A DNA stretch of 52,732 bases from a virus. The notes below the pieces were generated by a model. The model was not told the DNA's origin. It did no database searches and was given only the letters and a program-made list of their open reading frames with translations. Every line of letters starts with the position of its first letter. Within the stretch, counting starts at the first letter, position 1. Position numbers and translations under genes: made by a program. Below are positions 18,301-38,181 of this stretch, piece by piece. The stretch lies in IMG/VR virus record IMGVR_UViG_3300038423_000224, positions 1 to 52,732 of that record; one strand, 5' to 3'.

Positions 18301-21166
18301 GCATTTGGTCACGAATCAACTGATAGTTGTTAGCATAGGCAAAACCCACAAACTGATCCCATAGCTGATTGACCGGTGACTCTAAAGCAGGATCTGCAGC
18401 CAGAGCTGCAGAGACACGGGCATCAATATTCTTGGAGTAGGTTTGAAACAGCTGATAATCCGGCAGCTCGGATAGAGTTGGCCAGTTCTTAATCAGGAAA
18501 TAGTCGGAATAGTTTAACTGACCACCATGACTCTTGATTCGATTCGCTATATCTGGGAAGTCTTCGGTGAAGGTATTATCTCTCAGACCTGTTAGGCTGC
18601 TTGGAAACTCATCTAGCAACTTAACCATCAGCAGTTGCTCCTGTTGCTCGAAAGGAGCAGGAGACAGCACATTGTAAGCTTCACTAGAGATAGGAGGAGG
18701 AGCCAGAAAATGCGTAAGCGCTTGCTGCACCGCTGTGCCTAATGCAACACCCCCAATAGCACCTGATACTGCACCTCCGGCTGGTGTTACAGTCGGTGAT
18801 TGCTGAGTTAACCAGTTCCACAAGAACTGATTAGCTTCTGCTCCAGTAGCAGTAGTCCCTGTCACTGAAGAAACAGCGGTCGATACTGTATTTGAGTACG
18901 TCATCATCTTTGCCAAGTTCACCAAGGCAGTGAGCGATGTATCACCAGAGAAGTCATTGACGATCGTGCCGTCACGCAGGATCTTCAGCCAGATTTGAGA
19001 GAATCCAAAGGGTGTTGTATTCACCTGATATGGATTTGGACCCTCAGCATAATAGACGTTCTCATATTGAATGGCATTGTACTGGGCAGTTACTTCACTT
19101 GCTGCTTCAGGTATAGTCTCAGTTGTCAGTTCCTTTGTCAACAAGCCGCGAATACCCAGCATGTTAAGGACTTGGTTCTGGACTGCTATCGATTGCATAC
19201 GATGAATAGAGTTCACACGGCGCCACTCATTGCGCAGGCTCTGGAACTGATCTTCCAGCATCTTAGTCATATTGGATAGCAAGCTGAGTCCAGTATGTTC
19301 CGGTTCCGGATAACTATCAGCTTCTGGGATCTTGGCATTCGACAGCAACCCAACAGATACCAATGTAGACCCAGGACCCAAGTGCTGATAGGTAGGATAT
19401 TGATATCCAGCCAATGGTATCTGAGAGATGTTATTGACGAACACAACGGAGATCTGCATCGGATAGATAAAGTGTTCTGGATCTATATCTTCGATATCCG
19501 AGCTGGCCGGCTGATCATCATTCTCCTTCGCTGTCATCTTGATGTAGTGTTCTTTGTATAGGAACGCAGCAGACTCAGTAGCATAATCATACGTATAGTT
19601 GTTGTTCAACAGATAGCGAATCTGCGTTGTCATCGGCGGTGGGGTTGTCGCAGTCGGTGGCGGGTTGGTTGAGTTAGAAATGTTTGGAGGTGTGTTTGTG
19701 TTATTACCGCTTACCACTGGAGTGGTATTCGTTGCCGGGTTAGGATTACCAGCAGGCGGTATTGTACCTTCCTGAGGAGTGAAAGCATTTGGATCATTCG
19801 ATAGTGTGCGGTAAGTATTCGTAGCCTTCGTGAACCAAGTGTTATCCATACTTGGAGAACCTTGTCCATTATTCACGATGCCTTGTCCAAAACGATGTGC
19901 TTCCCAAGCCGACAGAGCAGAACCATTGTTAGCACGCAGCTTGAGAATAGCCCAACCTGTAGCCATGTCATTCTGAAGCTGGGCTTGTCCACCTGTGATA
20001 GGCGGGCTCATCATCCAAGAGATATAGGTTGCCAATACAGGATCTGTTGACTGCGGACTTGGAACAGACTTAGAGCCCCAGTTGTATCCATTGTTGGTAC
20101 GAGCAGCAACTAGATAACCACTCTGCACAGCCACAGAAACATAGTGTGTGCCAAGATAAGTATCAGCTGCCTTCATAGCATCAATAGCAGCCGCGCGCAC
20201 CCACTGCAGAAGACCTACTGCAGCCGAAGGCTTGCCGGTATTGGTCACTGTAGACTTGTTGATCGCCGAATAGTTATTATTGGATTCCGGAAAGGCAGCA
20301 GACTTCACCCACCACTGAATAGCAGGATTATGGATATCAGTTGTGTCGATAATGATGTTATCTACGAAGTTTCCAGCGCTGGCTTTCCCCTGCGCAGCAG
20401 TACCTTGTCGAGTGGCTCCAGGATTGGCTGGATTGAGGGCTCCAGATCCGGCCGGCGGAGGATTGAGACCTGTATCGTTAGGCAGTGCACAAGCAGCATA
20501 CTCGCGCGCAGTAAACGTAATACTACCAGGTATTTGTCCCTGCCAGTTCGTGGAGGAGACAGTCATACCTGTATCAGGCTGTTGGGTAGGATCACTATTC
20601 AGATTCGTCTGGATCCAGTTCAACAAGTAAGCTGTGAAAAGTGGCGAGTTCAGAGCACTGGAAGTAGAGTTGCCTGTCCAATCATCATACTGGAAGTTCT
20701 TGGAGTACGGACGATAGTTGAAGTACGACATCGTCATGGTAACTTGCAGTGTGTCAATCAAATCAGGATTAGTTTCCACACGCATCTGACGCAGAGCAAA
20801 AGCCATAACGTCATCTGCAGTAGCTCCTTGAGTTAGAACTGCAGGGTTCACGATCTGACGGATATGATCGTTCTCTACTTCAACGAAGGGAGCAGCCTTA
20901 AACATAGCCAGGAGCATCTGTACATCAGTCCATGCTGAGTAGTCGGCATTATCATAATCAGCAACGCACTTCCAAGTCCACGTTACATCCCAACGCGACT
21001 GACCAGTCTTGATAGGAATAGCGAACGGGAAGCGCAGAGGCATAACCTCTTCTCCGTTGATAACCTTGTGGCACTGAATCTGTTCCGGAGGAATGTTCAG
21101 TACAAGGTTACCAATACGGAAGTATCCCGCTTGATTGTCATCTCGAGTTGTGATTATCTGTCCCAT
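15311..21166 (-). CDS. Giant baseplate hub protein with embedded lysozyme-like segment (1951 aa)
   Basis: This sits between the tape-measure-slot giants and the wedge genes, where hub proteins belong. The N-terminal 160 residues are a beta domain. Residues 285-450 look like a lytic transglycosylase/lysozyme fold: a candidate catalytic Glu at 294 in FPESNNNYSAIN, followed by VGLLQW at 317-322, the usual E-S then G-L-x-Q pattern. A Pro/Thr/Asn-rich linker follows (460-515). The later part has gp27/gpD-like hub features (RDRPDTAVIQVSNLLHML, then TGTKVQVRMGF and PVFTGQVTQIEG). A hydrophobic segment lies near residue 1860 (LALIGAAAISPWIAVPAALAG). It probably forms the central hub and cuts peptidoglycan during penetration. 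The start is a TAATG overlap. Confidence 0.82.
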   Translation of the reverse strand: MGQIITTRDDNQAGYFRIGNLVLNIPPEQIQCHKVINGEEVMPLRFPFAIPIKTGQSRWDVTWTWKCVADYDNADYSAWTDVQMLLAMFKAAPFVEVENDHIRQIVNPAVLTQGATADDVMAFALRQMRVETNPDLIDTLQVTMTMSYFNYRPYSKNFQYDDWTGNSTSSALNSPLFTAYLLNWIQTNLNSDPTQQPDTGMTVSSTNWQGQIPGSITFTAREYAACALPNDTGLNPPPAGSGALNPANPGATRQGTAAQGKASAGNFVDNIIIDTTDIHNPAIQWWVKSAAFPESNNNYSAINKSTVTNTGKPSAAVGLLQWVRAAAIDAMKAADTYLGTHYVSVAVQSGYLVAARTNNGYNWGSKSVPSPQSTDPVLATYISWMMSPPITGGQAQLQNDMATGWAILKLRANNGSALSAWEAHRFGQGIVNNGQGSPSMDNTWFTKATNTYRTLSNDPNAFTPQEGTIPPAGNPNPATNTTPVVSGNNTNTPPNISNSTNPPPTATTPPPMTTQIRYLLNNNYTYDYATESAAFLYKEHYIKMTAKENDDQPASSDIEDIDPEHFIYPMQISVVFVNNISQIPLAGYQYPTYQHLGPGSTLVSVGLLSNAKIPEADSYPEPEHTGLSLLSNMTKMLEDQFQSLRNEWRRVNSIHRMQSIAVQNQVLNMLGIRGLLTKELTTETIPEAASEVTAQYNAIQYENVYYAEGPNPYQVNTTPFGFSQIWLKILRDGTIVNDFSGDTSLTALVNLAKMMTYSNTVSTAVSSVTGTTATGAEANQFLWNWLTQQSPTVTPAGGAVSGAIGGVALGTAVQQALTHFLAPPPISSEAYNVLSPAPFEQQEQLLMVKLLDEFPSSLTGLRDNTFTEDFPDIANRIKSHGGQLNYSDYFLIKNWPTLSELPDYQLFQTYSKNIDARVSAALAADPALESPVNQLWDQFVGFAYANNYQLIRDQMQRAQSSPQLKPMFVTTQTITTPGNAQLPGHSCYLDMGLKDVTYVGRDNNPAMYFHDDNADLIASMQKQITSIVSQTMTSVTNFEQVTPNVDTGKLVHTNTASFTGNAQAIISNVKPSSYTMSKAFPTFKLFLMEDNAQKPFYAYDNFYSYATVLDMEIIRYRDRPDTAVIQVSNLLHMLDQHMFDGTPQGRQEARLHAPVTTNIPADQQLVIPAGGVASMDINQPTADAWTLDNRFPQIAAHRPVDTTTSNRQVDNKFPLRYFALQTGTKVQVRMGFSNNPDLLVPVFTGQVTQIEGDEILSIVCQSYMLELVVPAQDEIRKDGFTVDGRINKLTNALVKSVRDFPSNIPSIPGDLLGGIFGNTPAFGGNSTVGGYKIPGLNSPGGTVADVMSAMLSVSTAKHFGRWQLGAPTDHYIKGHNWNTLLGSVLILASSSPLTAGATGLESGYDRSFENILTTHIFGPDGTAIADAKGGARTWWYELPGGYGSPEYYIPKDSIMTPWTYIQDIARRYPEFILAVKQYGFPYTADATLVFANPHDFYSSRTPVPGEVELQQQAASDTIQFNLWWTGGTNSGQAQFRAFCNGVGSQWASSAENQYEYTLNGATEGSEFYTFFIATVGATLQSPNAAADKMIGYINGGGPGVFFNITNIFAQQMASNVSSLGLVIGTSPGKTISPFQGEQGLQQLVQNYYTWLNQQTQPGANLAVNARMKPVRRWHLVNGDNIIHNGINLNENFYNTVRLVNQTLPANEAIPSQYRRMLLADPFIVDKKNIKGDTPYTNAYMQSFLRDELAKAYRGELVLLGNPEIEPFDVLMLLDPSTGISGPVEVDSVIHSFNQETGFITIVRPRAFVVINDKLSMPIHQAVWDMLTRMETQIEGWTIHNPLINSSNLPVVEAELGILALIGAAAISPWIAVPAALAGGAAIFWTGKIVNRLNPMGIAPLTRFQRPWISGLEGWKVDDVLGTLQTKWQYFKEDEIEPLMFSFRQARNMGLI

Positions 21167-24100
21167 TAGGATTCCAGTTGTTCTCGAATCGTCTCACGAC
21201 GGCGGAGAGTACTCATCTTGTTTCTCCATCCGTTGCGATAGTTCACATTGATATTTGATACACCATTATTGCCAGAGATCTGACTAATCATACGTTGCAT
21301 TTCAATCGTATCCTGGCGATTCTGAGCCTTCATTCTTACTTCCAGATCTGTACGCTGGCGCATTGGCGCCACGATCGTTGTAGATGTACCACCGCGCAGA
21401 GGAAGCTGACGACGAGGTGGGTTAACAGAAGACATAGCACCGGTTATTGGCTCGCCCGGGACCTGATCTGTTACAGTCTCAGTAGTTTCTGGTCTGAAGT
21501 TCCCACGCGGCCGACCGAAAGTAGCCTGCGTCGGAGTAACCTTCTTGACATGGCTGGTAAGAACTGCTCCTACAGCCGCGGCTCCGACTCCAATAGCCAG
21601 AACACCTAGGTTACCTTTGGACTCTCTGTAAGTACTCTTGAGACCCTCATTGATGGCGCCGAGGACTTTGGAAACAGACATCCCCGAGCCTTTCTCGCGC
21701 GCCAGGCCAATCAGCCAAGGAGGAGGCGTACCCATCTCCTTGTACAAGGCCTGCAGACGATAGAGGGAATCACCCTCCATATCCGTAGTTGCCTTAGTCA
21801 GAAGTTCGGCAGCACGATCTGCCCTAACATTACGCCCTATGATAAACTCGGAGAGTGTTCCTTGGAACTTCTCGGAGTCCAGCACGTCCATCAAAACATT
21901 CCGCTTGGTGCCGGGAGCTACCCTCATCCCAGTAAGCTCTTCAAACAAAGGAGCGGTCTCTGCAGTAATGATCGATTCCTTACCGTAGCCAGAGATAACT
22001 TCCCTCATACCCTCGGTGAACTTAGCTACACCTTCCGGCGTGCGAGATTCCAAGCCACCTACCAATCTTCTGTACAATCCCAGAGGATCCTCAGGATTCA
22101 ACTTCATCTTGCCCTTCTGGGCAGAGATAGGTACCTGACGGATCGTCCACAGCATGTGACCGAGGATATCTCTTTCCATCGGCTTCACACCGATTGTAGG
22201 ATGCATCTCGACGTTCATGTACAAGCGAGTCAGTAAGTTAGAGTACGCACCAACCACACCACCAGCCATACGCTGTGTGACTTGTTCTGCTCTTCCACCT
22301 GCACTAGCCAACTTAAGACTTTCTTCAAGCATAGAAGGCAGAGTCTTCACACCAGCTTCTGCGATGTTACGTGAGTCTTCAACGCTCCCGTACAGCATCT
22401 CAAGAGTCTTCAGGCTTCTCCACTGGTTGCTATTCAGAGCATTGATAGCAGCCTGGGCTTCACGTTCGGCTTGAGAACCCTTGCGATAGAAGAACAGATT
22501 CAGGATATCCTTATCGTCATCGGCGCCGAACAAGCCACGGATGCGCTCATCCATACCGACCATGTTAGGACCCATGCCAGCATCAGGAGCCACCTTCACA
22601 CGCATGTAAGGAGCTGACTGAATAGGGTGACGAGCAGCCGTAGCGTAGATATCTTCTCCGGCGAGTAATGCTTTACGGATCTCTGGGTCGCGGACTCGGC
22701 CGGCCATCTGCTCATTGATAAGGAGTTCAAATGGGTTTTCCTGGGCGCGCGTCTGAATGAAACCAGACACAGCTCCCAAGACATCTGTACCACGGGCACG
22801 GTAGAATCCTTCCTTCCCGAACAGTACACGCTGGGCTTCATCAAGGTGAGCGGAGATCGCCGCGGACATCATAACGGGATCCTTCTGCCACTTGACTACG
22901 TCCGCCAGCGTCTTTTCATAATCCGTGGGGCTATAAGTAAGACCCTCACCAACCTTTTCATAGAGGTTGCTACCACCGCCGTGTGCCAACTTACCAAGGA
23001 CAGGAATGTGAGTAACTTCAAGGTCACGTCCAGCCACACGTGCGTACACCGGCTGATCAAGTTTGATAGAAAAGTTCTCTTGGACGAGCTTATTTGAGGG
23101 ATCAAAGATACCTCCAACTCGGCCTTCCATCGTGCCTATTCTGAGATTGGCTGCAGCCTCCTCTATGGGGATAACAGTCCCCAGAGACTTGGTGAAGTCA
23201 CCACCTACGAACTGGGCAGCAAAAGCAGAAGCTCTTCCCGGATCGCCACCATGGAAATCCAAGCGGCTCATCAACTCCTTCATACCTTCCACATTACCAG
23301 CTCTCCACATCTCGGAGAACATATCGTATGTGGCGCCGACCATCTGAGGTACATTACGGCGAGTGCTATCCCAGAACGCCGCAAAGGAGAACATGGCGTT
23401 CTTCTGCATGTAGTTCATCAGACTTTCTTCACCGCTACGTCTGAAGGCAGAGAAGAGCTCACCCTCGGTCCCAGGAGCACCACGCTGAGCAAAGCCAGCA
23501 ACATCACGCAGGTAGTCTTCTGTAAGTTGACCCACCGACTGCATACGGAGTCGACGGCCCTCCAGATCCAGGCTGCGTACGTATTCCGAATCTTCGAGCA
23601 GATGGAAGACGTTATTTCCAGTACCAGTACGCTGCGCGCGAATACCCTGAGCAGCAAGATCAGCCATGTACTTATTGACACGATCCAATGCTTCCAGGTT
23701 TGCCCAGTCAGCCTTTAGATGCACACTGTTAGCAGCAATATCGCTAGACACAGCAGCTGCTTGCGATACCATAAGGCGGAAAGGATCGCTAGTCTTAGCT
23801 TGCATGTAGTGTAGCGGAGCTAGAGCTTCCACAAAGCTAGGGATAGCAGTCTTAGATCCAGTAGCTTCACCGTATAGATTCAGCAGCTCGACCTGGCGAC
23901 GGAAGATGTCTTCCTCGGGTACGATAGCCAGACCCTTCACGCCAGCGATGTCAATCTTGGCTCCTGTCTCTACTGGATACTCTTGACGCAGCTTGAGCTC
24001 GAACTGGCCGCTAGGTGTAGTGGACCAGCCTTCTATGAATGTAGAAGGAGCTTCCGACGTGACAGGATTCAAACCCTCAAATCCGATTAGTGTCTCTGGG

Positions 24101-25935
24101 CTAAGGGACTTTTTGATGTAATCCTCGGGGTTGAGATGAAGCTTGTCGACGTAGACGTTCTTACGCGACTCCATCTTCAGCCGGCGGAACTTCTCGTGAA
24201 GGATAATATCACCTTCACCCAACCCACCCAAGCCACGGCCGGCTTCTAGATAGCCCTTCTCGCCGAGCTTACCACTGATCTTACCCCAAGCAGCCTCTGC
24301 CTGGGCGCGTGTCATCTTTGGATTGTCGGCCAGTATGCGTTGGATAGCAGTCTCTTTATAGCCAGCCAATCCTTCTGCTGTTTTCGGCAAGTCGCCGAAC
24401 AGCGACTTCTGTTGTGGCGACACACCAGCCACGGACATCTGTATTTCCGGAACACCTCCGATGGATTCAACCGCGGAAGTTGTAAAGCTTGGACGGAACT
24501 CCTCACCAATGGTCTCAGCTTTCAGCTGCAAGTCCTTGGTGAAGGATCTATAGAAATACGTTTGCTTAGCGAGCGAAGGCGCACCTCCCGGGATGTAGAG
24601 TTCCGATTCAGCGAACTCGAACACACCTTTCGATGTGCCTCCCTCAGAACCAATGCGAGTCATACCACGACCCAGCATCTTGATAGTGTACTGGATCCGT
24701 TCCAGGTCTGACAGATCCTCAAATGCCTTGCCTCCATAAATAGGCAAGCTGCTAGGAATAGCAGCGCGAGAACGGATATACAGAGCTTGTGGAGAAAGGT
24801 TAGCAAGCTGGGATTCAAGACGTGTTTGAAGCTTGAATGGATCTTCGGGGACCACGCCGCCGAAATAAGCAGCACGACCAATATCACCTTTCAGCTTTCC
24901 CCAATCCTGAGTCAGGTGTTCAGCAACGAATGTATCCAGTTCGAATACTCGTTCTGGCGTGTGAATGTGGCGCCCGACTCCAACCTTGCCTTCAATGTTG
25001 ACGGATCCTGTCTTGGGATCAAACAGAGGGATATGAAGCTCGCCCTTTGGACCCTTGATGTTGACACCCAGCATACGGCCGACAGTTCCATCTGCCACCT
25101 GCTCGGCAACGACCGTAGCAGAGGACACCTGTCCCTGACGGATCGCGCGCTGAATAGCATCAGCTACTTCTGGACGCTGACCGTGCAACTGACCATAAGC
25201 TTCCAGCCACTCCATACTAGTAGTCTTACCAGTCATGCTCATCTTGAGTGGATTGGCAAACGGACCGAGATCCTTGAGCTTCTTGGCCCAGCCAAGACGG
25301 CTACTCAGCTCCTTGACGAAGCGGGGATCAGCTCTATTGGCGTTGACGATACCACGGAGCTCTGACTCTGCCATGCCGGCCAGAGGACCTCCGCGCGCAA
25401 CTCTAGTAAGATCTAGCGGAGAAGCTACCCGCTGTCTGGCGCCTTCCACAGCATAGGTAAGCAGATCACGCTTGTTAGACATGCCCAGAAGCTCATGAAA
25501 GAGGTTCTCCGCCTGCTCCATGCTCTTCTCGATCGGTGGCCCACCGCGGTCAACCTGGCTGAAGAAATCTACGGCCGCATTGTCGGCCCAGGTACGGAAG
25601 ATGGGATTGAGAGCTCCTGCACCCCCACCTGTCTTTTCCAGAGCTGAACGTAAGTCCTTGAATCTAGTAGCTTTATTGCTACCAAAAAACATAGGCATCT
25701 CACGTGCGAACTGCATGCCAGCTCGAGCTGTACGGGAGGCAGATGTTACCAAGCCCGGGCCGGCAAGACCCATAGCCGCTACAATAGGGGTAGTTATGAC
25801 GGCAGTCCGGAAGTAACCGCGGTTCTCATCCTTAAGGAAAATAGGGGCCGTAGCCGAGGCAAAGGCAGTGGCAAAGGCCACACCTGGATGTTCAGTTGCA
25901 AGGCTTTTAACGGCTTTTAGGAACCCGGTAAACAT
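21166..25935 (-). CDS. Giant tail-interior protein, tape measure candidate (1589 aa)
   Basis: Together with the 1641-aa gene upstream it occupies the slot between tail chaperones and hub where the tape measure belongs. Hydrophobic segments lie near the N-terminus (residues 18-70, ending TAVITTPIVAAMGLAGPG) and near the C-terminus (LGVLAIGVGAAAVGAVL). Long helical, charged regions lie between. A terminal basic, Gln/Arg-rich tail follows. Terminal hydrophobic segments fit a tape measure or ejection protein that enters the host envelope. At about 1.5 angstrom per residue it could specify a tail near 240 nm. It lacks the usual short tandem repeats, so the tape-measure role could belong to the neighbouring giant instead, or be shared. 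Confidence 0.75.
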   Translation of the reverse strand: MFTGFLKAVKSLATEHPGVAFATAFASATAPIFLKDENRGYFRTAVITTPIVAAMGLAGPGLVTSASRTARAGMQFAREMPMFFGSNKATRFKDLRSALEKTGGGAGALNPIFRTWADNAAVDFFSQVDRGGPPIEKSMEQAENLFHELLGMSNKRDLLTYAVEGARQRVASPLDLTRVARGGPLAGMAESELRGIVNANRADPRFVKELSSRLGWAKKLKDLGPFANPLKMSMTGKTTSMEWLEAYGQLHGQRPEVADAIQRAIRQGQVSSATVVAEQVADGTVGRMLGVNIKGPKGELHIPLFDPKTGSVNIEGKVGVGRHIHTPERVFELDTFVAEHLTQDWGKLKGDIGRAAYFGGVVPEDPFKLQTRLESQLANLSPQALYIRSRAAIPSSLPIYGGKAFEDLSDLERIQYTIKMLGRGMTRIGSEGGTSKGVFEFAESELYIPGGAPSLAKQTYFYRSFTKDLQLKAETIGEEFRPSFTTSAVESIGGVPEIQMSVAGVSPQQKSLFGDLPKTAEGLAGYKETAIQRILADNPKMTRAQAEAAWGKISGKLGEKGYLEAGRGLGGLGEGDIILHEKFRRLKMESRKNVYVDKLHLNPEDYIKKSLSPETLIGFEGLNPVTSEAPSTFIEGWSTTPSGQFELKLRQEYPVETGAKIDIAGVKGLAIVPEEDIFRRQVELLNLYGEATGSKTAIPSFVEALAPLHYMQAKTSDPFRLMVSQAAAVSSDIAANSVHLKADWANLEALDRVNKYMADLAAQGIRAQRTGTGNNVFHLLEDSEYVRSLDLEGRRLRMQSVGQLTEDYLRDVAGFAQRGAPGTEGELFSAFRRSGEESLMNYMQKNAMFSFAAFWDSTRRNVPQMVGATYDMFSEMWRAGNVEGMKELMSRLDFHGGDPGRASAFAAQFVGGDFTKSLGTVIPIEEAAANLRIGTMEGRVGGIFDPSNKLVQENFSIKLDQPVYARVAGRDLEVTHIPVLGKLAHGGGSNLYEKVGEGLTYSPTDYEKTLADVVKWQKDPVMMSAAISAHLDEAQRVLFGKEGFYRARGTDVLGAVSGFIQTRAQENPFELLINEQMAGRVRDPEIRKALLAGEDIYATAARHPIQSAPYMRVKVAPDAGMGPNMVGMDERIRGLFGADDDKDILNLFFYRKGSQAEREAQAAINALNSNQWRSLKTLEMLYGSVEDSRNIAEAGVKTLPSMLEESLKLASAGGRAEQVTQRMAGGVVGAYSNLLTRLYMNVEMHPTIGVKPMERDILGHMLWTIRQVPISAQKGKMKLNPEDPLGLYRRLVGGLESRTPEGVAKFTEGMREVISGYGKESIITAETAPLFEELTGMRVAPGTKRNVLMDVLDSEKFQGTLSEFIIGRNVRADRAAELLTKATTDMEGDSLYRLQALYKEMGTPPPWLIGLAREKGSGMSVSKVLGAINEGLKSTYRESKGNLGVLAIGVGAAAVGAVLTSHVKKVTPTQATFGRPRGNFRPETTETVTDQVPGEPITGAMSSVNPPRRQLPLRGGTSTTIVAPMRQRTDLEVRMKAQNRQDTIEMQRMISQISGNNGVSNINVNYRNGWRNKMSTLRRRETIREQLES

Positions 25936-26005: not shown

Positions 26006-29000
26006 TTAGCTGGTGCTCTCTTCCCGGTACTCGTCCTCATTCCGGCGAATATCCCGCATAACCTCTTTGTCTCCCTGTTCGTCGACGCTTATAGACACGT
26101 TGGAGCCTGCCACTCGGTTAGGACCGCCCGAGGAGACCACTTGCGGATTCTTATCTTGTCCCTCGAGGATAATACGCTCCACAGTTTGTCGTATGCGTTC
26201 TGTAGGTTGTGAACCGCTAGAAACAAGTTCTCGCACAGCTCCATCGATGTAGGGCTTGCGCCAGAGGAGGGCTGCCCGGTCGTCGTAGATGTTGAAGTCG
26301 TGGTAATCATAGCCTTCGTTCTGAATAATCTTAAGCTTGACATCCTCATAGTCAATGCCTTGCTCCCATAGCGGAGAACCAGGACCGGGGATATCAAAGC
26401 CGAGCTTGCCAAAGGTTTCGGCGATTTGCTTCGAACGGATGTAGTCTGCGTAGCTGAGGTCTGTTTTCGCTTGCTCATACTCTTTGAGGCCTTCCTCTGT
26501 GTAGAGGACTCCGCCTTCTTCAATGGCTGGTATTATCTTGCCCGCGAGGCGAGCAAGCATAGCATCAGTTTTTACCCACTGAGCAGTAAGGGCTCGGGCT
26601 AGTTCCGGAGAGACAGATTCAAGAATCTGCTGGCGCTTGTCCGGATCTGTTTCTTGGAGGAATGCTGGGAAGTAAAGCTTCTCGCGCCGAGGGAGGGTTT
26701 GAGAGACAAACTGAGGATTGCCAAAGAGATTGGCACCAATATTCGTTCTCTTACCCTGACTAGTATACCTGCCTTTCTGGCCTGGATGCGCTCCTGCCTG
26801 CACATCTGCACGCAGATATTCCAACTCATCGACCAAGCTATCCATTAGACGGCGATGTTCGACTTCTTCCGGCACCAATACACCGCCAGTGAAACGACGG
26901 TAGGTACCGCGGGCCCATGCAGCAATCATATCATGGAACGGCTTCTGCCATCTACGCATGCGCGCGCCGTAGACTTCCTGTTCCTGATAGAGAGACAAAG
27001 CTGTGCGCTCATTCCAGTACTTTGTGTGGAATGGAGTTGGTACGAAGCGGAGAGGTCCACCCTCACCTGTGAAGGCCAGAGTCTCGGCGTACTTACCGAG
27101 AGCTACCTGGGTGGAGGAATACATGGCCTGAGCTTCTGCCCCGCCGTAATCCTTTCTGAACTGTCCGAGACCTCGATCGATGATTTCTTTGTTGATATTA
27201 ACATCATCAATGAAGATGACAGCACGAGACTCAGCCGCATGCTCTTCAGTACCCTTAGGCACAACAAGAGTAGCCTGCATGCCAACCTGGCTAGACAAGT
27301 AATCATCCAGAGAAGCTTGTTTCTCCGTAACGGCCTTAGCACTCTGAGAGCGAGTAAGTTCATTCTCCTCGCCGAGTGTTGTAGCTGAGAGATCGGAAGC
27401 AGACATACCAAGAGAACTGAATATGAACTTGCGTCCTGGATACTGCTCCAGCTCAATACCTTCTGGTGTAGCCTTGGTGATCGTTCCTTGGATCTGTTCG
27501 ATCGAAGCAGTGAAACGACGCTGACCGAACTGGATCGTCGATTCCTTCATCTGGCGCACTTGATCTTCAGTGCGTGCAAACTCGATCTCCAGACGAGCAT
27601 CTCTCTGTGCGGCCGCGCGCACCTTGGAGCGATAGATCATGTACTCCTTACTCCAAGGAGCAACATCAGCCAGAATCTTGTAACGATAGATGTCTGGGTA
27701 TTCTTCTGCCTTCAAGCCACGAAGCTCTGGATGCAGAGCAGCATAACCACGGCCTGGAAGACGAGCACCACCTTCCGGTATCTTGGCGAACGGATCGCCA
27801 GTACGGAAGTTGATCATGTAATCTTCGCCAGGCAGCCAACGAGGCATTGTATTCGGGATCTCATTAGCTTGCGGAGCTAGCTTATCAGGCTGAATGAAAC
27901 GGCGGAGAGGTTCTGAATAACCGAACGGCATGCCACCAGTTCCGCTAGGGTTGAAGCCAGACACAGCACCCAACTCACGCTGGTAGTACTGACGGGACAG
28001 ATTCGTCATTTGACGACTGCCCTGCAATACAACATCTTGACCCGGTGTTCCGGCGCCAGGAGTTCCAGCCTTACCATAAAGGGTTGTAGCTATGAACCCA
28101 GGCAGACCTGTATATTCAGCAAAGGCCAGCGCTTCACGACCGACAACATCCTTGAAGCCAAACTCCTCACGAGGCCGAGATGGCGCCAGGCCACCCAACG
28201 CCATGTTAGGTTCTAGACGCGGGCTATACAACGTATAGTTGTTGATGTCCCATTCGCCTTGGTGCATTCTCTGTGTTGGCTTTACGATGCGGCCGACTGT
28301 GGCAGCCAGCAGCGGACCAATGAGAGGCACGTTGGAGAAAGCAGGAGATGTGATTGGGTATGGACGGCTAGCGTAGTTCGCGCGTTCCAGCCAGTATGGA
28401 TCCTTTATGTACTTGAACGGATGCAGCAGTGGGTGATGTTCCCAGTATGCATCTTCCGAACCATAGGTCGATACCATCTCGGCCTTGGTCTTCATCAACT
28501 GATACCAGTGCGGACGGAAGTACTTGATGCGACCGCCACTGAACGGAGTGGAACCTACATCCCACCAACGGCCGGCGCGGATTGGAACTTCTTCTTCACC
28601 AGAGTAGATGCGTTGCAGCTCATCTTCAGTCTTACGGCTGCCCAACATACCAGGCACGAAAGGCAGAGCCAGCAAAGCACCGATACCTGCACCCTTCCAG
28701 AAGGCCTTGTGAGAAGCAGCTACTCGAGCAGCGTGGACTGGGAACTCTTGGGCGCCACGAGCAATGTTGACCCAGTGAATACCTGCACCAATAGCACCAG
28801 CTCCGATAGGCAGAGCTAACGGACCATACTGCGGACCTGGTACGATCTCTTCGTACTTATCTGTGATCGCACGGAGGCCTGGGATTGCGTCGGTTGCGCG
28901 CGCCCAGGCAAGATGAGCCTTAAGCGGAACCTCGGCGAGCGTCTCAGCTGGTTTATTTCCCAGCTGGTAGTTGATGTAACGTGCGGCCGTGATAGCAAGA

Positions 29001-30931
29001 TATGCAGGCAGCACACGCTTGAGCATCAGCGCATTGAGCATTCCGCCTTCGCCGGCGAACGGAATGTGGAACAGTTTGTTGTATGAGCCCTTAGGCAGAC
29101 CCATACCGATATCAGACAACAGACGGAGTGGGCGCTCAGCAGCTTCGAATGCTACACGTTGACCTGTTCTGTAGGCCGATTCGATACCACCCACGAGTCC
29201 AGGCTGACGACCGTAGAGAGGTTCGAAGAACTGGAACTCTCCACCAATCTGTCTCTTGAAAGCCTGTCCCTTTGTGAGGGGAGTTCCTGGTCTCTGGCTG
29301 GCGCGGAGATTCTGGAACATCTCCCACATCTCAGCAAGAGGACCTTTGTCAGTCAGTGTACGAGGGAATACCTGTTCGCGGAGCTTGGCGCCAAAGGCAG
29401 CCGATGATCCTGTCAGCCGGCCGCGTTCGGCAAAGCGAATAGCTTCACCGCGGCCGCCAACCAAACTCAGATACGGAGAGGAAGCTGAGGTTCGAGTGAA
29501 CCTCATTCCTGTCTTAGCAAAGCGTTCATCCAGGGCGCTGACACCAATCAGGCGCTCGATGTGCTTACCCATCTCGGTAAGCTCAGAACCGCGTATCAGT
29601 TGTTCGGCCGCAAAGGAAACTTCCTCTGGCAGATAACTGGACATGCGCTGAGACAGACCGAAGGTACGGAAGAGGCCGCCAGGCGAACGCGCTTCTACCG
29701 TCTTCATGAACTGATAGACGCCCTCAGCATAGCCAGACCAGTTCTTAAGAGCAAACTTATGTGCTCCTACAACTGCGGCGCCACCAGCCAACCAGGCAGC
29801 TACCTTCAGAGTATTGCGATCGTCCTGTCCATCCCAACCGGATCCAAAATCAGTCAAGGCATGACGGCTCTCAGCAGCCAGACCTGTACCACTCAAACCG
29901 GTGATCTGAGTCTGACGATCGCTTCTCTTGCTGCTTGCGATAGCCCACGCTGCGGTTGCCGCGGCAGCAAAGACCAGGGCAACAGAGATACCCTTTCCTA
30001 TGGCACTGACTTTGTTAGGCAGGACCTTGGCACCACGCTCAGCCTGAGCAGCTACCTTCTCAGCCCAGGGGCTGGCATAGATCTTGGAGAAGAACGTCTC
30101 GGCAGTCTCACCTGGGGGCAAGAGTTGTGCAGAGCCCAGAGCTTCTTCCCAACTGTGCCCACGCTGTAGGTTTCTCTTGGCTGTGCGCAGGCGCTCAAAG
30201 AGGGTCTGCTCGACCTTGACGTCAGTCACAGCCTCATGATAGCCGGCAGCTCCAGCCAGCTTGGGACCCATGAGTCTTTCAAGTCCGCCGGCCGCACCAG
30301 CAATATTCTCAACCTTCCAGCCAGGAACCCACTGCATCTCCTCTACGTTACGCGCCAGCATACCTGGGCCGGTAGTCTTGGAGATAGGAGTGGATGGGCC
30401 CATGCGCAGGTGACGTTCTGCGAAAGCTGGGTTGTCTTGTCCGTAACCCAGCGCCAGTTCAAAGAATGACTGCTCCAAGCCGAATACCTTTACTCCCTTG
30501 CGCTTGAAGAAGTCCTTGTATCCAGCGAGGCTGGGATAACGGCCGGCGATCTCAGTGAGCACACCAGTATCGTACTTGACATTCCAGCCAGTCAGTAGGA
30601 AACGCTTCTTACGAGAGAGTTCTTCTTCGGCCGAGGCAAAGAAGCGTCGAGCTGCTTCTTCTTCACCGACCTGACCAAGCTTCATAGCCTGAGAAAGAAC
30701 TTGCTCGCCTTTCGCATAGTTGTACGCAAACGGGATATGAATCCCGCTCACAGGATCGGTATATCCAGTGCGAGGCTTTACTAATGTGGTGGGATGAAAC
30801 GGGGATGCTACGTAAGGAGGGAGTTTTGAAGCGAAGATCTGGAGCAGGCCTGTGTTCTTATGTCCAGCGGACAGGCCTGTAGTCTCGACGTCGAGAACAT
30901 GAAAGAAATGCTTTTGATGCCAGGTTGCCAT
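26006..30931 (-). CDS. Giant virion protein with N-terminal DEDDh 3'-5' exonuclease domain (1641 aa)
   Basis: Residues 9-250 carry a complete DnaQ/RNase T-type active site: Asp14 and Glu16 in FHVLDVETTGL, Asn117 and Asp121 in TGWNVKYDTGVL, and His232-x4-Asp237 in YHEAVTDV, preceded by the family-typical KVENIAG. Hydrophobic segments follow near residue 315 (SVALVFAAAATAAWAIA) and at about 640 and 750. A region near 770-890 has conserved-looking Trp and Tyr clusters (RAGRWWDVG). Residues about 1135-1290 resemble an SNase-like OB fold (INKEIIDRGLGQF), without obvious catalytic residues. It lies in the tape-measure slot. I infer a structural or ejected virion protein that delivers nuclease activity into the cell. 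The N-terminal domain call is strong; the delivery role is inference. Confidence 0.85.
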   Translation of the reverse strand: MATWHQKHFFHVLDVETTGLSAGHKNTGLLQIFASKLPPYVASPFHPTTLVKPRTGYTDPVSGIHIPFAYNYAKGEQVLSQAMKLGQVGEEEAARRFFASAEEELSRKKRFLLTGWNVKYDTGVLTEIAGRYPSLAGYKDFFKRKGVKVFGLEQSFFELALGYGQDNPAFAERHLRMGPSTPISKTTGPGMLARNVEEMQWVPGWKVENIAGAAGGLERLMGPKLAGAAGYHEAVTDVKVEQTLFERLRTAKRNLQRGHSWEEALGSAQLLPPGETAETFFSKIYASPWAEKVAAQAERGAKVLPNKVSAIGKGISVALVFAAAATAAWAIASSKRSDRQTQITGLSGTGLAAESRHALTDFGSGWDGQDDRNTLKVAAWLAGGAAVVGAHKFALKNWSGYAEGVYQFMKTVEARSPGGLFRTFGLSQRMSSYLPEEVSFAAEQLIRGSELTEMGKHIERLIGVSALDERFAKTGMRFTRTSASSPYLSLVGGRGEAIRFAERGRLTGSSAAFGAKLREQVFPRTLTDKGPLAEMWEMFQNLRASQRPGTPLTKGQAFKRQIGGEFQFFEPLYGRQPGLVGGIESAYRTGQRVAFEAAERPLRLLSDIGMGLPKGSYNKLFHIPFAGEGGMLNALMLKRVLPAYLAITAARYINYQLGNKPAETLAEVPLKAHLAWARATDAIPGLRAITDKYEEIVPGPQYGPLALPIGAGAIGAGIHWVNIARGAQEFPVHAARVAASHKAFWKGAGIGALLALPFVPGMLGSRKTEDELQRIYSGEEEVPIRAGRWWDVGSTPFSGGRIKYFRPHWYQLMKTKAEMVSTYGSEDAYWEHHPLLHPFKYIKDPYWLERANYASRPYPITSPAFSNVPLIGPLLAATVGRIVKPTQRMHQGEWDINNYTLYSPRLEPNMALGGLAPSRPREEFGFKDVVGREALAFAEYTGLPGFIATTLYGKAGTPGAGTPGQDVVLQGSRQMTNLSRQYYQRELGAVSGFNPSGTGGMPFGYSEPLRRFIQPDKLAPQANEIPNTMPRWLPGEDYMINFRTGDPFAKIPEGGARLPGRGYAALHPELRGLKAEEYPDIYRYKILADVAPWSKEYMIYRSKVRAAAQRDARLEIEFARTEDQVRQMKESTIQFGQRRFTASIEQIQGTITKATPEGIELEQYPGRKFIFSSLGMSASDLSATTLGEENELTRSQSAKAVTEKQASLDDYLSSQVGMQATLVVPKGTEEHAAESRAVIFIDDVNINKEIIDRGLGQFRKDYGGAEAQAMYSSTQVALGKYAETLAFTGEGGPLRFVPTPFHTKYWNERTALSLYQEQEVYGARMRRWQKPFHDMIAAWARGTYRRFTGGVLVPEEVEHRRLMDSLVDELEYLRADVQAGAHPGQKGRYTSQGKRTNIGANLFGNPQFVSQTLPRREKLYFPAFLQETDPDKRQQILESVSPELARALTAQWVKTDAMLARLAGKIIPAIEEGGVLYTEEGLKEYEQAKTDLSYADYIRSKQIAETFGKLGFDIPGPGSPLWEQGIDYEDVKLKIIQNEGYDYHDFNIYDDRAALLWRKPYIDGAVRELVSSGSQPTERIRQTVERIILEGQDKNPQVVSSGGPNRVAGSNVSISVDEQGDKEVMRDIRRNEDEYREESTS
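26756..26767 (-). other. One-mismatch copy of the TATACTAATCAG motif inside a gene
   Basis: The minus strand reads TATACTAGTCAG here, within the 1641-aa gene. It differs from the two intergenic copies at one base. It may be chance, but it is worth including in any motif search. Confidence 0.25.
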
Positions 30932-30936
30932 GCATA

Positions 30937-31257
30937 TTACACACTGAAGCTCTTACCACAGCCACACTGGCTGCGCACATGTGGATTAGTAAACCTAAAT
31001 CCAGATGCGTCTAGGCCTTCGATGTAGTCTACAGATACATCCTCAAGATACATCAAGCTCATTGGGTCCACGACTACTTTCACGGGACCAAACTCAAACA
31101 GTTCCCAGTCCGGCTCGTATTCATCAACGAGACCGATAGAGTATTCGAATCCGGAGCAGCCGCCACCTTTCACACCAAGGCGGACGAACGGCCGATCTGG
31201 GTTATCTTTGAGGACGCTGACGAGCTTGTCCTGGGCGGCGATTGAAAGCTGGATCAT
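30937..31257 (-). CDS. iscA: IscA/ErpA/HesB-type iron-sulfur cluster carrier
   Basis: The 106-residue protein matches the A-type carrier family in length and landmarks. The N-terminus is MIQLSIAAQDKL. Cys34 sits in GGGCSGFEY and the C-terminal CGC is Cys98 and Cys100, so all three cluster-ligating cysteines are present. The start at 31257 is supported by GGAGAGAAGG just upstream and lies inside the previous gene, overlapping it by 56 bases in another frame. A-type carriers bind and pass on Fe-S clusters. In this tail operon it could support host Fe-S assembly during infection, or load a cluster into a virion protein. It is a clear auxiliary gene. The exact paralog (IscA, ErpA, SufA) cannot be told, so the symbol is approximate. 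Confidence 0.92.
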   Translation of the reverse strand: MIQLSIAAQDKLVSVLKDNPDRPFVRLGVKGGGCSGFEYSIGLVDEYEPDWELFEFGPVKVVVDPMSLMYLEDVSVDYIEGLDASGFRFTNPHVRSQCGCGKSFSV

Positions 31258-31768
31258 TCCTTCTCTCCAATGCTATTTGCTGCGCATCTGTGAGCTGCTT
31301 TTTCTTTCGTTGTAACTTGCTCTTAGAATCCTTGACAGACTTAGGATCCATCGGGTTGAGTGGCACGCCCGACACAAACTCAGCTTGGGCCAAGCGAGTA
31401 AGGAGTGTTTCCGAATCCCAGCCATCCATCACCTCGAAGGGGATCTTGAATACAGATGCTATGAAGGCCTGTGCGCACAACAGATAAGAGTCTGTTACCT
31501 TCTTGCGCGCGTTCTCCAGCGGTAGAGACAGCGTCTGGAAAGATCCAGAGAACGGGCTCTTCTCAAGCTGGTCCTTGTAAATCCACATCATGATCCCGGC
31601 CGGAATCTCTTCCGGCCGCGGACCGTGGACGACACACAACTTATAGACGTGTAGGGCTACTTCAGCGGGAGGCCCTTGACGAGAACGGGCATCTCGGTAC
31701 TCTCCCCAAGTAAGATCACGCCAGACTACACGTGTCCCACTGGGCCAAGTGGCGGCCCTAGTTGTCAT
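31202..31768 (-). CDS. Tail assembly chaperone-like protein (188 aa)
   Basis: The N-terminus has VVWRDLTWGEYRDAR, a W-R-x-L-T-W-x-E-Y pattern typical of phage tail assembly chaperones. The rest is helical, ending in a Lys/Gln/Arg-rich tail. It directly precedes the tape-measure-slot giants, separated only by iscA, and overlaps iscA by 56 bases. Its ATG lies three bases after the stop of the 159-aa gene and in the same frame (TAA TCT ATG). Canonical chaperone pairs are made by programmed frameshifting. Here the pair is instead split by an in-frame stop, so read-through could make a fusion. Function follows from motif and synteny. Confidence 0.7.
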   Translation of the reverse strand: MTTRAATWPSGTRVVWRDLTWGEYRDARSRQGPPAEVALHVYKLCVVHGPRPEEIPAGIMMWIYKDQLEKSPFSGSFQTLSLPLENARKKVTDSYLLCAQAFIASVFKIPFEVMDGWDSETLLTRLAQAEFVSGVPLNPMDPKSVKDSKSKLQRKKKQLTDAQQIALERRNDPAFNRRPGQARQRPQR

Positions 31769-31771
31769 AGA

Positions 31772-32251
31772 TTACAGCTCGGCTGAAAGGAACTCGATCT
31801 GCTGTGGATCCATGAAATCCGACAGCTTCGTTACCTTCGTGAAGAGGGTGGCCGGGAGGCCAGCAGTGCCATTGCGCAACCGAACGTCGGTCAGCTTACC
31901 ATTCTCGCCGGCATTGGTCCAGACAACAGCCTTGATAACGGCGTGGAGTTGCATTTCGAGTTCAGCATCCGCCACTGGAGTTGCCATGTTTTGGATCTGC
32001 TTTTGGATTGTGGTCAGCTCTAGACCGGTCAGTCCGCGGACAATGTAAGCACGCTTACCGTCGGGAGTAAAGAGTTCGAGTCTGTTGTTAGGGGCTTGCT
32101 GCTTCCATGCAGCAATCTGATCCTTCGTCGGAGCCCCAGGCAGGGATGCTAGGAACTCGTGTGGATCCATATTGGAACGGTCTACAGGCTTGGTTTCGCC
32201 TGGAGTACCAGTACCTTGTACTTCTACTTCTGCTTCCGGATTGTGTGTCAT
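31772..32251 (-). CDS. Tail assembly chaperone-like protein, first of pair (159 aa)
   Basis: This is the first of two adjacent small genes before the tape-measure slot, the usual position of the G/G-T-type chaperones that hold the tape measure and tube subunits during assembly. The N-terminal 40 residues are acidic and probably disordered. The rest has helices ending in LSDFMDPQQIEFLSAEL. The ATG at 32251 has AGGAG at a good distance. The stop TAA is followed by TCT ATG of the next gene in the same frame. The role is inferred from gene order and size. I see no decisive motif. Confidence 0.65.
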   Translation of the reverse strand: MTHNPEAEVEVQGTGTPGETKPVDRSNMDPHEFLASLPGAPTKDQIAAWKQQAPNNRLELFTPDGKRAYIVRGLTGLELTTIQKQIQNMATPVADAELEMQLHAVIKAVVWTNAGENGKLTDVRLRNGTAGLPATLFTKVTKLSDFMDPQQIEFLSAEL

Positions 32252-32440: not shown

Positions 32441-32522
32441 AGACTCGCTTGACCTCTCTGTACATTCCGCGGGCCACTACAATAACCGCCACAACGCAGA
32501 ATATGATGTTACCCCAATGCAT
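32400..32522 (-). CDS. Tiny single-TM protein (40 aa)
   Basis: The ATG shares TAATG with the stop of the preceding 444-aa gene, which strongly suggests coupled translation. Residues 5-17 form one hydrophobic segment (NIIFCVVAVIVVARG), followed by a basic, then acidic, polar tail with a single Cys. It could be a membrane or injection-associated peptide. No homology is claimed. The 3' end overlaps the next small ORF by 41 bases. The plus strand also has an open frame across this region, but its composition and strand fit poorly. Confidence 0.55.
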   Translation of the reverse strand: MHWGNIIFCVVAVIVVARGMYREVKRVYGNHGRCDTEEGQ

Positions 32523-34926: not shown

Positions 34927-35625
34927 TTAGCTGCCACCTTCACCAGAAAGATTCGGGAAGGCAGTTACCACAGCAGACCAAGGTTCAACGAGACGAGCAA
35001 CCCATGTTGCCTGCATCTCGGTCACCGCGTCATCGATGCTGACTCCCATACCTTCATTTAGGATCTCAACACCGAAGATCTTCATCGTAGTGGCGGCTCC
35101 GATTTCATTCGTACCGGCCAGAGTGATGTCAAAGGGAAGGATTTGATCCGAGTACCATGGTACAGCTTCCTGCTTGAAGCCCGAGACCGCGTTGACCGGC
35201 ACTTCGGCCGAATCAACAGTCGTCGGGAGCGGGATGGGGACTGCACGTGTCAGAGACGAGGAGAAGATCGCTGTCTGCGAGAGCTGCTGTTGGGCAGCTG
35301 GGTTGTATTCCGGACGAACGTCATCGATGTTGGCTACGAATACACCAGATGCTTCATAGATGATGTTCAACAGAGCATGACGATCGAAGTTGATCCAGAC
35401 CAAGGAGCCAGCAACGCCGCGCTTGTTACGGCTAAAGGCACGAGGGTCGGGAGATCCCATCGTGTAGATAGGCGCCTTCTCGCGAGTAACGCTGTAGCTG
35501 ATCGCCTGGATCTCGGCGAACGGGATGTTGCCGATCTGGGCACGGATGTCCGAGCCTGAGAACGAGTTGTAGGAACGAGCGATTTCGCTTTCGAGCGAGT
35601 TACCGCCATTTGTATTAATAGCCAT
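34927..35625 (-). CDS. Major tail tube protein
   Basis: The 232-residue protein lies directly downstream of the sheath gene, the standard order in contractile tails. It has tube-fold features: an N-terminal strand (IRAQIGNIPFAEIQAISYSV), then TREKAPIYTMGSPDPRAF, NKRGVAGSLVWINF, a helix, and late strands LPFDITLAG and TMKIFGVEIL. The ATG has AGGAG nine bases upstream. Hairpins on both sides (35671-35695 and the terminator at 34855) suggest a separately stabilised, abundant transcript. Tube subunits polymerise as hexameric rings around the tape measure and form the DNA channel. Confidence 0.85.
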   Translation of the reverse strand: MAINTNGGNSLESEIARSYNSFSGSDIRAQIGNIPFAEIQAISYSVTREKAPIYTMGSPDPRAFSRNKRGVAGSLVWINFDRHALLNIIYEASGVFVANIDDVRPEYNPAAQQQLSQTAIFSSSLTRAVPIPLPTTVDSAEVPVNAVSGFKQEAVPWYSDQILPFDITLAGTNEIGAATTMKIFGVEILNEGMGVSIDDAVTEMQATWVARLVEPWSAVVTAFPNLSGEGGS

Positions 35626-35670
35626 TTGTTTATGACTCCTGGGAGGAGATACTACTGAGGAAGTTTACCC

Positions 35671-35695
35671 GGGGCCAACCACGAGAGTCAGCCCC
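35671..35695 (-). terminator. Short GC hairpin after the sheath gene
   Basis: GGGGC (35671-35675) pairs with GCCCC (35691-35695) in the 90-base gap between the sheath stop and tube start. There is no U-run on the minus strand. It may be a weak attenuator or mRNA-stabilising hairpin. Confidence 0.4.
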
Positions 35696-35715
35696 AGATT
35701 AAACCGTTGATACTA

Positions 35716-38181
35716 TTAGCCGTTCAGGTTAATACCGATTGTGGCATTCAACTGAACCAGCTCATTTGCAGGAACGAAGCTGATCTGGATTGAAGCCTGA
35801 CCAATCTTCTGCTGAGCTGGAGTGGATGTGATCGTGAAGTTGTAGCTCGAGAGATAACCGCGCTTCTGGAGGTTCAAGCAGTCGGCGTCAAGAGCAGTCT
35901 TCAAGGCCACCAAGGACAAACCATCGTTGGTTCCGTTGCCAATGTAGTTGTTGGCCTCTCCCAGAACTGTCTGGATGACCAAGAACTTGATGCGCTGACG
36001 GAGAGCCAGAGTATAATCGCTTGCCACTGTTGCCGCGGTCTTGTCGATCAAGGCAACCGGCAGAACACCCACACCCTTGTAACGAAGCATGTTGATGTCT
36101 GCGAATGTGAGAGCATCGAGCTGGTTGAGGCTTGCACGATAGAGCTGCTGTGCACCCGCAACTGGCTTGTTGGTAACTGCCTTCTGCTGGTCGAGCGTGC
36201 TGACCAAGCCGGCGATGATACCAGCAATGTTGCCGACGTAAGTGCCGTAGCCGTTCGACAGGAGAGCGTAATCACCCTGTGGACAGAGATAAGCACCCAT
36301 ATCAACCTTGTAGCCGTTGCTGTCGATTTCCGGGCCACCATCGTACTCACCCGAGTCTGTATCAAACAGACCAGGCAGACGGTAACCATTACTCCAGTCG
36401 GCGCATGCCGAGTTCAACGAGCTGGCGCTGCAGCCAACCAACCAAGGAGTACCCAGCAAACCGCCACCTGACGTTGCCGGATTACCTGTGACCGGGTTAT
36501 AGGTCGGCAGATAGCCGATCCATGCCTTCACAGCCGGGAGCGAGAAGTTGCTCAAGCTTGCGGGACCACCAAAGCCGATGAAGCCGAGGCAGCCGCCATT
36601 GTCAGCCTGAGGAGCTTCGCTCTGATTGAAGCAGAAGCGCGCGAGCTGATAAGCGAAGTTGACTTCGTGGAATCCGGACTGTTGGACTGTTCCACCAGCG
36701 CCGACACCAGATGCCAAACGAGTAGCAGCAGTGGAGAAGCTGAACACAACAGGAGTCGTCGGAGAAACCTGACCCTGAAGCAGAGCAGAAGCCAGCTGCT
36801 GGTTGTTGGAGTTGTAGAAGTGAGCATCCGAGGCCCACTGATAAATAGGATTGCCGGAGGCGTCAACACCAGTCCACAACCAGTCAAGAGCGTTGGGGTT
36901 CGTAACTGGATTGTTGATGGCTGTCGAGGCGCCTGTATAGAACGCAACGTTCGGGTTGTCACCGAGAGCGCCAGGAGTGATTGCTTCATCGATCGGGAAG
37001 CCCTGGAGCAGGTTGATTGCATTCTGTTGTGCGATGTACAGCTGGCGGCCAGTGAGACCGATACCTGTGATTGGCGCGACGTATACTGCACCACCACCGA
37101 TGTTCTGGATCTCAACAGCATTTGCCAAACTGTCTGTACCAGTACCGATTGCGGTACCAGCAATAGCAGAACCTGTAACCTGGGAATCACCAGTGTTCAG
37201 GATTGCGGAGCTGCCTGTCACGGCCGGGTCGTTAGACCAGACCACCTGGTTATCAAGCCACAGAGAGAGCAAGCCGTTCTTGTACCACACGCTGTAACGC
37301 GAGTTGGCATCTGCTTCGACCTGGCCCAAAGTGATGAGTAAGCCAGGATATGCAGCAACCGGCTGCTGGCCGTAAGCTGGAGTTGCAGACAGAGTACCTG
37401 CTGTAAGAGTGTAAGGACCGCCCACTGTGAAAGGACCAGCAGCAGTCAATACGATATCGTGTGTACCAATGCTCAGAACTTCGTACACTCCGTCCAAAGC
37501 AGACGAAGGAGAACCAAGACCAGCATCAGTCAAACCTGCCAGTGTAACCTGGGCGCCGACCACAACACCCGCAGTAGGAGAACCAGAATAATGCAGATCA
37601 ACTGTCGTTGCAGTCAATGCTTGAACTGTCTGGAAGTTAGCAAACGTATCTGCGATCGCCGTTGGAGTTTCAATAGCGTGATCAGGCGAACCAATCTGGT
37701 CCACCAGGATTGTGTTGCCAACGACCTGTGAAATCGGCTGTGCTGCGATATTGTAACCGGCGAAGGAGAAACCTGTTACTGTAAGAGGAGCCCCATCAAC
37801 CAGGTCAGCAGTCGGAGGAAATGCAGTTGTGTAGGTGATAACACCATCAGACAGAACTGCGCTAATGATGGCATTGTTCGGACCAAAACCGGATCCAGAA
37901 GTTCCAACCAGAAGAGTGCCCTGAGCAGTACCGACGCGCATCAGGTAAACATTGTCGCAGTATACGGCCGCTTCAGACATCCCGCGGATTAGCGTACCTT
38001 GCAGCCCGAAAAGAGTGGTTGCTGTAGCAACGCTTACAACCTGATAAGGGCTGTTTGCGGGTCCAGTCGCGGAGGTACCAAGGACCATGATGGATTGATT
38101 TGTTGGGGTGTTAACGGCGGCCAGACCACCGTCTACGGTCTGTACCTGGACACCCGGCAGATTTGCAAAAGTGAAGGACAT
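35716..38181 (-). CDS. Tail sheath protein, enlarged by inserted modules (821 aa)
   Basis: The N-terminus (FANLPGVQVQTVDGGLAAV) and the C-terminal region (LDALTFADINMLRYKGVGVL, then a long helix and NFTITSTPAQQKIGQASIQI) are typical of the contractile sheath family. The ATG has a strong GGAGG at 38187-38191. At 821 aa it is larger than T4 gp18 (659 aa) and most others. Two beta modules (about 98-165 and 185-258, with LTVTGFSF and VTLAGLTDAG) are spliced between the N-terminal strands and the returning sheath domain at about 270. These resemble modules in the head and fibre proteins, and I infer they decorate the tail surface. The sheath contracts to drive the tube through the envelope. Confidence 0.9.
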   Translation of the reverse strand: MSFTFANLPGVQVQTVDGGLAAVNTPTNQSIMVLGTSATGPANSPYQVVSVATATTLFGLQGTLIRGMSEAAVYCDNVYLMRVGTAQGTLLVGTSGSGFGPNNAIISAVLSDGVITYTTAFPPTADLVDGAPLTVTGFSFAGYNIAAQPISQVVGNTILVDQIGSPDHAIETPTAIADTFANFQTVQALTATTVDLHYSGSPTAGVVVGAQVTLAGLTDAGLGSPSSALDGVYEVLSIGTHDIVLTAAGPFTVGGPYTLTAGTLSATPAYGQQPVAAYPGLLITLGQVEADANSRYSVWYKNGLLSLWLDNQVVWSNDPAVTGSSAILNTGDSQVTGSAIAGTAIGTGTDSLANAVEIQNIGGGAVYVAPITGIGLTGRQLYIAQQNAINLLQGFPIDEAITPGALGDNPNVAFYTGASTAINNPVTNPNALDWLWTGVDASGNPIYQWASDAHFYNSNNQQLASALLQGQVSPTTPVVFSFSTAATRLASGVGAGGTVQQSGFHEVNFAYQLARFCFNQSEAPQADNGGCLGFIGFGGPASLSNFSLPAVKAWIGYLPTYNPVTGNPATSGGGLLGTPWLVGCSASSLNSACADWSNGYRLPGLFDTDSGEYDGGPEIDSNGYKVDMGAYLCPQGDYALLSNGYGTYVGNIAGIIAGLVSTLDQQKAVTNKPVAGAQQLYRASLNQLDALTFADINMLRYKGVGVLPVALIDKTAATVASDYTLALRQRIKFLVIQTVLGEANNYIGNGTNDGLSLVALKTALDADCLNLQKRGYLSSYNFTITSTPAQQKIGQASIQISFVPANELVQLNATIGINLNG

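Follow-up and report, generated by a model that had tools for sequence, protein, structure and literature searches.

A putative RNase T-like exonuclease domain on an orf145-type tail-module protein of a soil jumbo phage, and nuclease exchange in its family

Why should a very large protein from the tail-gene module of a phage begin with a domain resembling an exonuclease, and could such a nuclease be delivered into the cell at infection? The question is raised by a 52,732-nucleotide stretch of viral DNA (IMG/VR record IMGVR_UViG_3300038423_000224, called here the window), in which a single open reading frame encoding 1641 residues fills positions 26006–30931 on the minus strand (30931→26006). 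Its product, referred to here as the carrier, is a large protein within the tail-gene set of a soil jumbo phage, and the large genes surrounding it are all oriented in the same direction (Table 1). A preliminary description placed this protein in the tape-measure position, which proved to be one gene off. The carrier gene comes after the tail-chaperonin genes and before the tape measure gene; judged by the gene order of 0305φ8-36 (Hardies et al.) and that of ME3, it therefore occupies the position of orf145, and the 1589-aa protein that follows fills the tape-measure slot adjacent to the hub gene. Orfs 143/144 of 0305φ8-36 have been described as the sole non-structure genes near the tape measure gene. 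An assembly artefact is an unlikely source of the fusion, because the same fusion is present as a single open reading frame in L004 (a 215 kb contig), L067, L069, L070 and L154. An iron-sulphur gene of the IscA/HesB type is wedged between a chaperonin-slot gene and the carrier gene in the window; the sister locus L008 has no space for one.

Table 1. Features of the carrier gene and its surroundings in the window (A9, alignment of the DEDDh domain; A10, family profile).
Feature	Residues	Position	Strand	Basis or remark
Carrier protein, 1641 aa, orf145-type of the 0305φ8-36 lineage		26006..30931	-	Homologous to ME3 gp035, MTATph1 CDS0026, KLEB27-3 gp031+gp033
Predicted RNase T-like DEDDh exonuclease domain	1-261	30149..30931	-	
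Exo I motif VLDVETTGL (D14, E16)	12-20	30872..30898	-	Invariant in A9
Exo II motif LLTGWNVKYDTGVL (D121)	112-125	30557..30598	-	D121 invariant in A9
Exo III motif AGYHEAVTDVKVEQTLF (H232, D237)	229-245	30197..30247	-	Invariant in A9
Membrane-like hydrophobic segment following the nuclease	314-332	29936..29992	-	
Motif QITGLSGTGLAAESRHALTDFGSGWD	342-367	29831..29908	-	Only in carriers with DEDDh or relics
Conserved carrier core	375-1641	26009..29809	-	Common to relatives without DEDDh
Degenerate staphylococcal-nuclease-like domain	1140-1260	27152..27514	-	Family profile A10 matches thermonuclease, E 1e-6
1589-aa protein, tape-measure slot		21166..25935	-	Position of 0305φ8-36 orf146; homologues after carrier in L008, L154, L066, L067, L069
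1951-aa protein, baseplate-hub slot		15311..21166	-	phrog_20474 endolysin 5e-37; weak tblastn match to ME3 hub gp037 region
Two small genes, tail-chaperonin slot		31202..32251 (31772-32251, 31202-31768)	-	Position; same place in relatives
Tail tube and sheath genes anchoring the module		34927..38181 (35716-38181, 34927-35625)	-	tblastn to sheath/tube regions of ME3, MTATph1, KLEB27-3
Further sheath/tube-group genes		33856-34836, 32522-33856		By similarity
IscA/HesB-type iron-sulphur gene		30937-31257		PF01521 3.8e-18

Searched by tblastn against phage records, the carrier matched only ME3, MTATph1 and KLEB27-3, contractile-tailed phages with genomes of 177–235 kb, and the matches were confined to residues 598–1340. 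The carrier core matches ME3 gp035 at 4e-39; gp035 is encoded two genes ahead of the hub, and its record calls it a structural protein of the virion with a homologue in 0305φ8-36 (YP_001429636). Many more relatives were recovered from IMG/VR, in scans that yielded 35, 21, the best 80 of 130 and then 14 loci; they make up more than 60 protein clusters (61 at 60% before L154 and L161 were added), a sample of those IMG/VR members that match the search patterns. One of them, L090, from a contig of 218,948 bases, has a 1930-aa carrier homologue followed by an open frame of more than 2,400 codons running off the locus. The presence of hydrophobic segments further along the protein, announced in the preliminary description, was confirmed (residues 314–332, 377–395, 705–723, 747–765 and 865–883).

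Pieces of the carrier gene (about 30–214 aa) also occur in the chromosomes of 13 of 298 genomes, all from one order of Acidobacteria (L144–L146, L166–L175), and mostly correspond to window residues ~960–1104. At least seven of these loci have a gene for a serine recombinase near the carrier piece, three of them with an HTH-like open reading frame between the two, and none of the other tail genes of the window was found near the piece in L144–L146. The pieces of L144 and L145 differ with a dN of 0.035 and a dS of 0.56. These fragments could be relics of phages hit by recombinase elements, or islands that have captured a piece of a phage gene.

The first 261 residues of the carrier contain, in order, the hallmark of the DEDDh superfamily: the DxE of Exo I, the D of Exo II and the HxxxxD of Exo III. 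The five catalytic residues originally proposed (D14, E16, D121, H232 and D237) are numbered exactly as in the translated frame. The same N-terminal fusion, when sought in related phages, was found in three further lineages, L067/L068, L069/L070 and L154, all from environmental jumbo-phage contigs in IMG/VR. Over the four lineages, identity to the window is about 30% in the domain and 50–60% in conserved core parts, and the invariant positions of alignment A9 include D14, E16, T17, G115, Y120, D121, H232, A234 and D237. In the first four rows, 9 of the 33 D/E/H residues of the domain are invariant and all five catalytic residues are among them (chance p ~5e-4, from only four rows, of which two are closely related). 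A pattern of the three motifs, drawn up post hoc, matched 6 of 114 proteins, those with the DEDDh fusion only, and none in 200 shuffled sets. The invariance and the shuffled sets rule out chance occurrence of the motifs; the agreement goes beyond chance because the five residues were predicted from the window alone and are nevertheless invariant in three other lineages at ~30% identity.

Similarity to known proteins is remote. Alone, the domain of the window gave no matches in sequence searches of Pfam, NCBIfam, PHROGs or the PDB, tblastn against 50,697 phage records returned nothing even at E 10, and a genome scan for cellular relatives found none; the empty result of the RNase_T model (PF00929) carries no weight, as this model is blind even to the known domain in phage contigs. 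With a profile of five domains, the best PDB sequence match was RNase T (2f96), which is weak (E 0.083) and collinear over Exo I and Exo II, and there were weak NCBIfam matches of L154 to oligoribonuclease and PolIII epsilon and of L069 to dnaQ. An AlphaFold model was obtained from five rows, after trimming the input and adding L154 (a four-row input with a long tail had given a model too poor for a fold search), with modest confidence (mean pLDDT 61). RNase T accounted for each of the top 17 hits when this model was used for a PDB fold search (best probability 0.96, E 0.023, TM ~0.4), and a search of BFVD gave weak matches only, with exonucleases among them. The fold match is support rather than proof, because the AlphaFold network may lean on learnt RNase T patterns; the remote matches, each weak, jointly agree with an RNase T-like DEDDh domain. 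The expectation of an exonuclease fold survived comparison with this model of modest confidence and was amended as to the nearest solved relative, the domain being nearer to RNase T than to DnaQ. The resemblance extends to the Exo I, II and III residues, an EE...F...GxN..YD stretch around Exo II and the predicted fold; the differences are the low identity in the fold alignment (~15%) and the fusion of the window domain to a 1380-aa membrane-like protein predicted to be a virion component.

The fusion of this domain to a large tail-module protein, supported by invariant motifs and RNase T matches, does not stand alone: the orf145 family carries several nuclease modules, of which this is one. 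The closest relative of the window carrier, L008 (=L071), is 58–68% identical over residues 375–1641 and begins directly at the core, without DEDDh; it has instead an insert of ~118 aa (its residues 568–685) at the point that corresponds to window residues 908/909, and this insert matches the Vsr-like family PF18741 (REase_MTES_1575) at 1e-18, above the curated cut-off. In L041 (=L059), residues 1371–1500 form a PD-(D/E)XK domain that matches Cas4-/RecE-type PHROGs (phrog_1706, 1e-14; phrog_434, 4e-11) and is inserted in the middle of a conserved LPGxGY...ILADVAP block. A local profile detected this PD-(D/E)XK domain in 14 proteins (about 11–12 clusters), and a second round added L104; most have intact GxxD, (D/E)xK and QxxxY motifs, which are degenerate in L084. 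Taken together, Cas4/RecE-like PD-(D/E)XK domains occur in about 13 clusters. Carriers with Vsr-like or Cas4/RecE-like inserts include L031/L085, L040/L057, L112, L094, L095, L088, L090 (PD-(D/E)XK) and L117. L076 and L084 combine an N-terminal PD-(D/E)XK-type sequence with a DEDDh-like domain of a second lineage (RNase_T match of 0.0028 over Exo I in L076).

A quick-method tree built on 844 columns of the core places the window with L071, L154, L066, L067 and L069/L070 at a support of 100. The tree forces at least four changes of DEDDh state, since the domain is absent in L071 and L066 of this clade and separately present in L076/L084. Judged from these sequences, the domain was lost in the closest relative of the window, and it is dispensable, because L071/L008 and L066 do without it. 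One carrier thus repeatedly gains, loses and replaces nuclease modules.

RNase T acts on the 3' ends of RNA and single-stranded DNA. The explanation that accounts best for these observations, and which is probable to a degree that leaves ample room for others, is that the carrier is an orf145-type virion protein that brings an exchangeable nuclease into play when the phage infects; in this phage the cargo would be the N-terminal DEDDh 3'–5' exonuclease of RNase T type. The conserved core would sit in the tail, in the lumen or the lower part, and the annotation of its relatives suggests that it belongs to the virion. Tape measure proteins are known to be ejected and to insert into membranes (see PMC13277306); by analogy, the core with its hydrophobic segments would enter or cross the cell membrane during ejection, leaving the nuclease on the cytoplasmic side. 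There, its predicted activity would be to trim RNA or single-stranded DNA from the 3' end, whether these molecules come from the host or from defence systems; given the substrates of RNase T, the first candidate targets are tRNA, mRNA fragments, defence RNAs and single-stranded DNA. The conserved catalytic residues, the purifying selection described below and the repeated exchange of modules argue that selection acts on nuclease activity rather than on the fold, and that the core serves as a carrier.

Alternatively, the nuclease may act on the DNA of the phage itself, either by processing the termini of the genome as it arrives, for circularisation or recombination, or during assembly. This is rather unlikely. 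Exonuclease-type modules (DEDDh, Cas4/RecE-like) do predominate, and the carrier, if in the tail, would be on the exit path of the DNA, but the modules differ in chemistry and probably in polarity (DEDDh, PD-(D/E)XK, Vsr-like), and the many family members lacking a recognisable nuclease fit poorly with a fixed step of genome processing.

The carrier gene is also visited by mobile sequences. Inteins are present in L085/L031, L076 and L088 (several; Intein_splicing, 7e-33) and, by eye, in L077, and the KLEB27-3 gene is split around an HNH-type open reading frame. Vsr-like nucleases are known as homing enzymes; to our knowledge, DEDDh exonucleases and Cas4/RecE-like nucleases are not. The inteins of L031/L085, L076 and L088, the split KLEB27-3 gene and the homing habit of some Vsr-like nucleases would suit a reading of the modules as selfish, homing-type insertions in a conserved phage gene, useless to the virion, which is nonetheless improbable: it accounts badly for the other two nuclease types, and the DEDDh module sits at the N-terminus, where no splicing domain was found. 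This module also travels with other elements, as in both DEDDh lineages the nuclease is followed by a membrane-like segment and then by the motif I(T/E)GLxxxGxxxxxRxxxTxFGSG(W/Y). The motif is carried by the window, L067, L069, L070, L154, L075, L076 and L084, and is lacking from carriers without DEDDh except L075, which looks like a broken relic; no relative of FGSGW was found in named phages. Purifying selection on the DEDDh region likewise speaks against a useless insertion: the comparison of L069 with L070 gives dN/dS values of ~0.10 for the domain and 0.07 for the core, at a dS close to saturation.

That the DEDDh domain is catalytically dead, a nucleic-acid-binding or structural part of the tail, is hardly probable either. 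Degeneration has occurred in this family: the catalytic residues of the staphylococcal-nuclease-like domain of the same protein are not recognisable in the window, and the second DEDDh lineage (L076, L084) has E at the position of the Exo II D, both as read from alignments. In the four lineages discussed above, by contrast, all five catalytic residues are retained at ~30% identity, a result by which the proposal survived the conservation test named in the preliminary description. It is highly improbable, despite the membrane-like segments, that the carrier is an assembly factor or an early protein merely encoded in the tail module, since its homologues in ME3 and KLEB27-3 are annotated as virion or structural proteins.

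Enzymes carried in phage virions are already known, as is a staphylococcal nuclease on the hub protein in this very lineage (PMC2147016). The carriers of ME3, MTATph1 (CDS0026) and KLEB27-3 (gp031+gp033) share with the window the core and the order chaperonins, carrier, tape measure and hub of the 0305φ8-36 orf145 family, but lack the N-terminal DEDDh domain. The hub protein of BtI1 has an N-terminal staphylococcal nuclease, the function of which was called obscure (Hardies et al., 2007, PMC2147016); it shares with the window carrier the joining of a nuclease to a tail protein within one phage lineage, but the gene and the nuclease fold are different. Polyvalent proteins are large multidomain phage proteins for whose enzymes delivery together with the DNA has been proposed (Iyer et al., 2017, PMC5512222). 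The likeness lies in the size, the enzyme domain and the proposed delivery, but no metallopeptidase or processing domain (no Pfam domain) was found in the window carrier, and the text on polyvalent proteins names neither DnaQ/RNase T domains nor carriers linked to tape measures (PMC5512222). In a partial search of the literature, no report was found of a virion protein bearing an RNase T-like exonuclease, or of orf145 as a carrier of interchangeable nucleases.

The site of injection is a battleground, as the bacterial defence system SNIPE, which associates with tape measure proteins and cuts phage DNA at the injection point, makes clear (PMC13190303). Proteins that enter the cell with the phage DNA act before phage genes are expressed, and are natural candidates for counter-defence. 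More tentatively, at rather less than even probability, the orf145 family may serve jumbo myophages generally as a tail-borne vehicle for delivery, a virion protein that inserts into membranes and on which unrelated nucleases are swapped under pressure from host defences, so that a particle-borne nuclease could act before expression; the payload of the window, RNase T-like, may trim tRNA 3' ends or defence RNA. The isolates ME3, KLEB27-3, MTATph1 and 0305φ8-36 lend themselves to tests of virion content and delivery of the carrier. With at least three apparently active types of nuclease, placed at different positions and gained or lost even among close relatives, this one carrier would provide a testable system for the study of the first minutes of infection.
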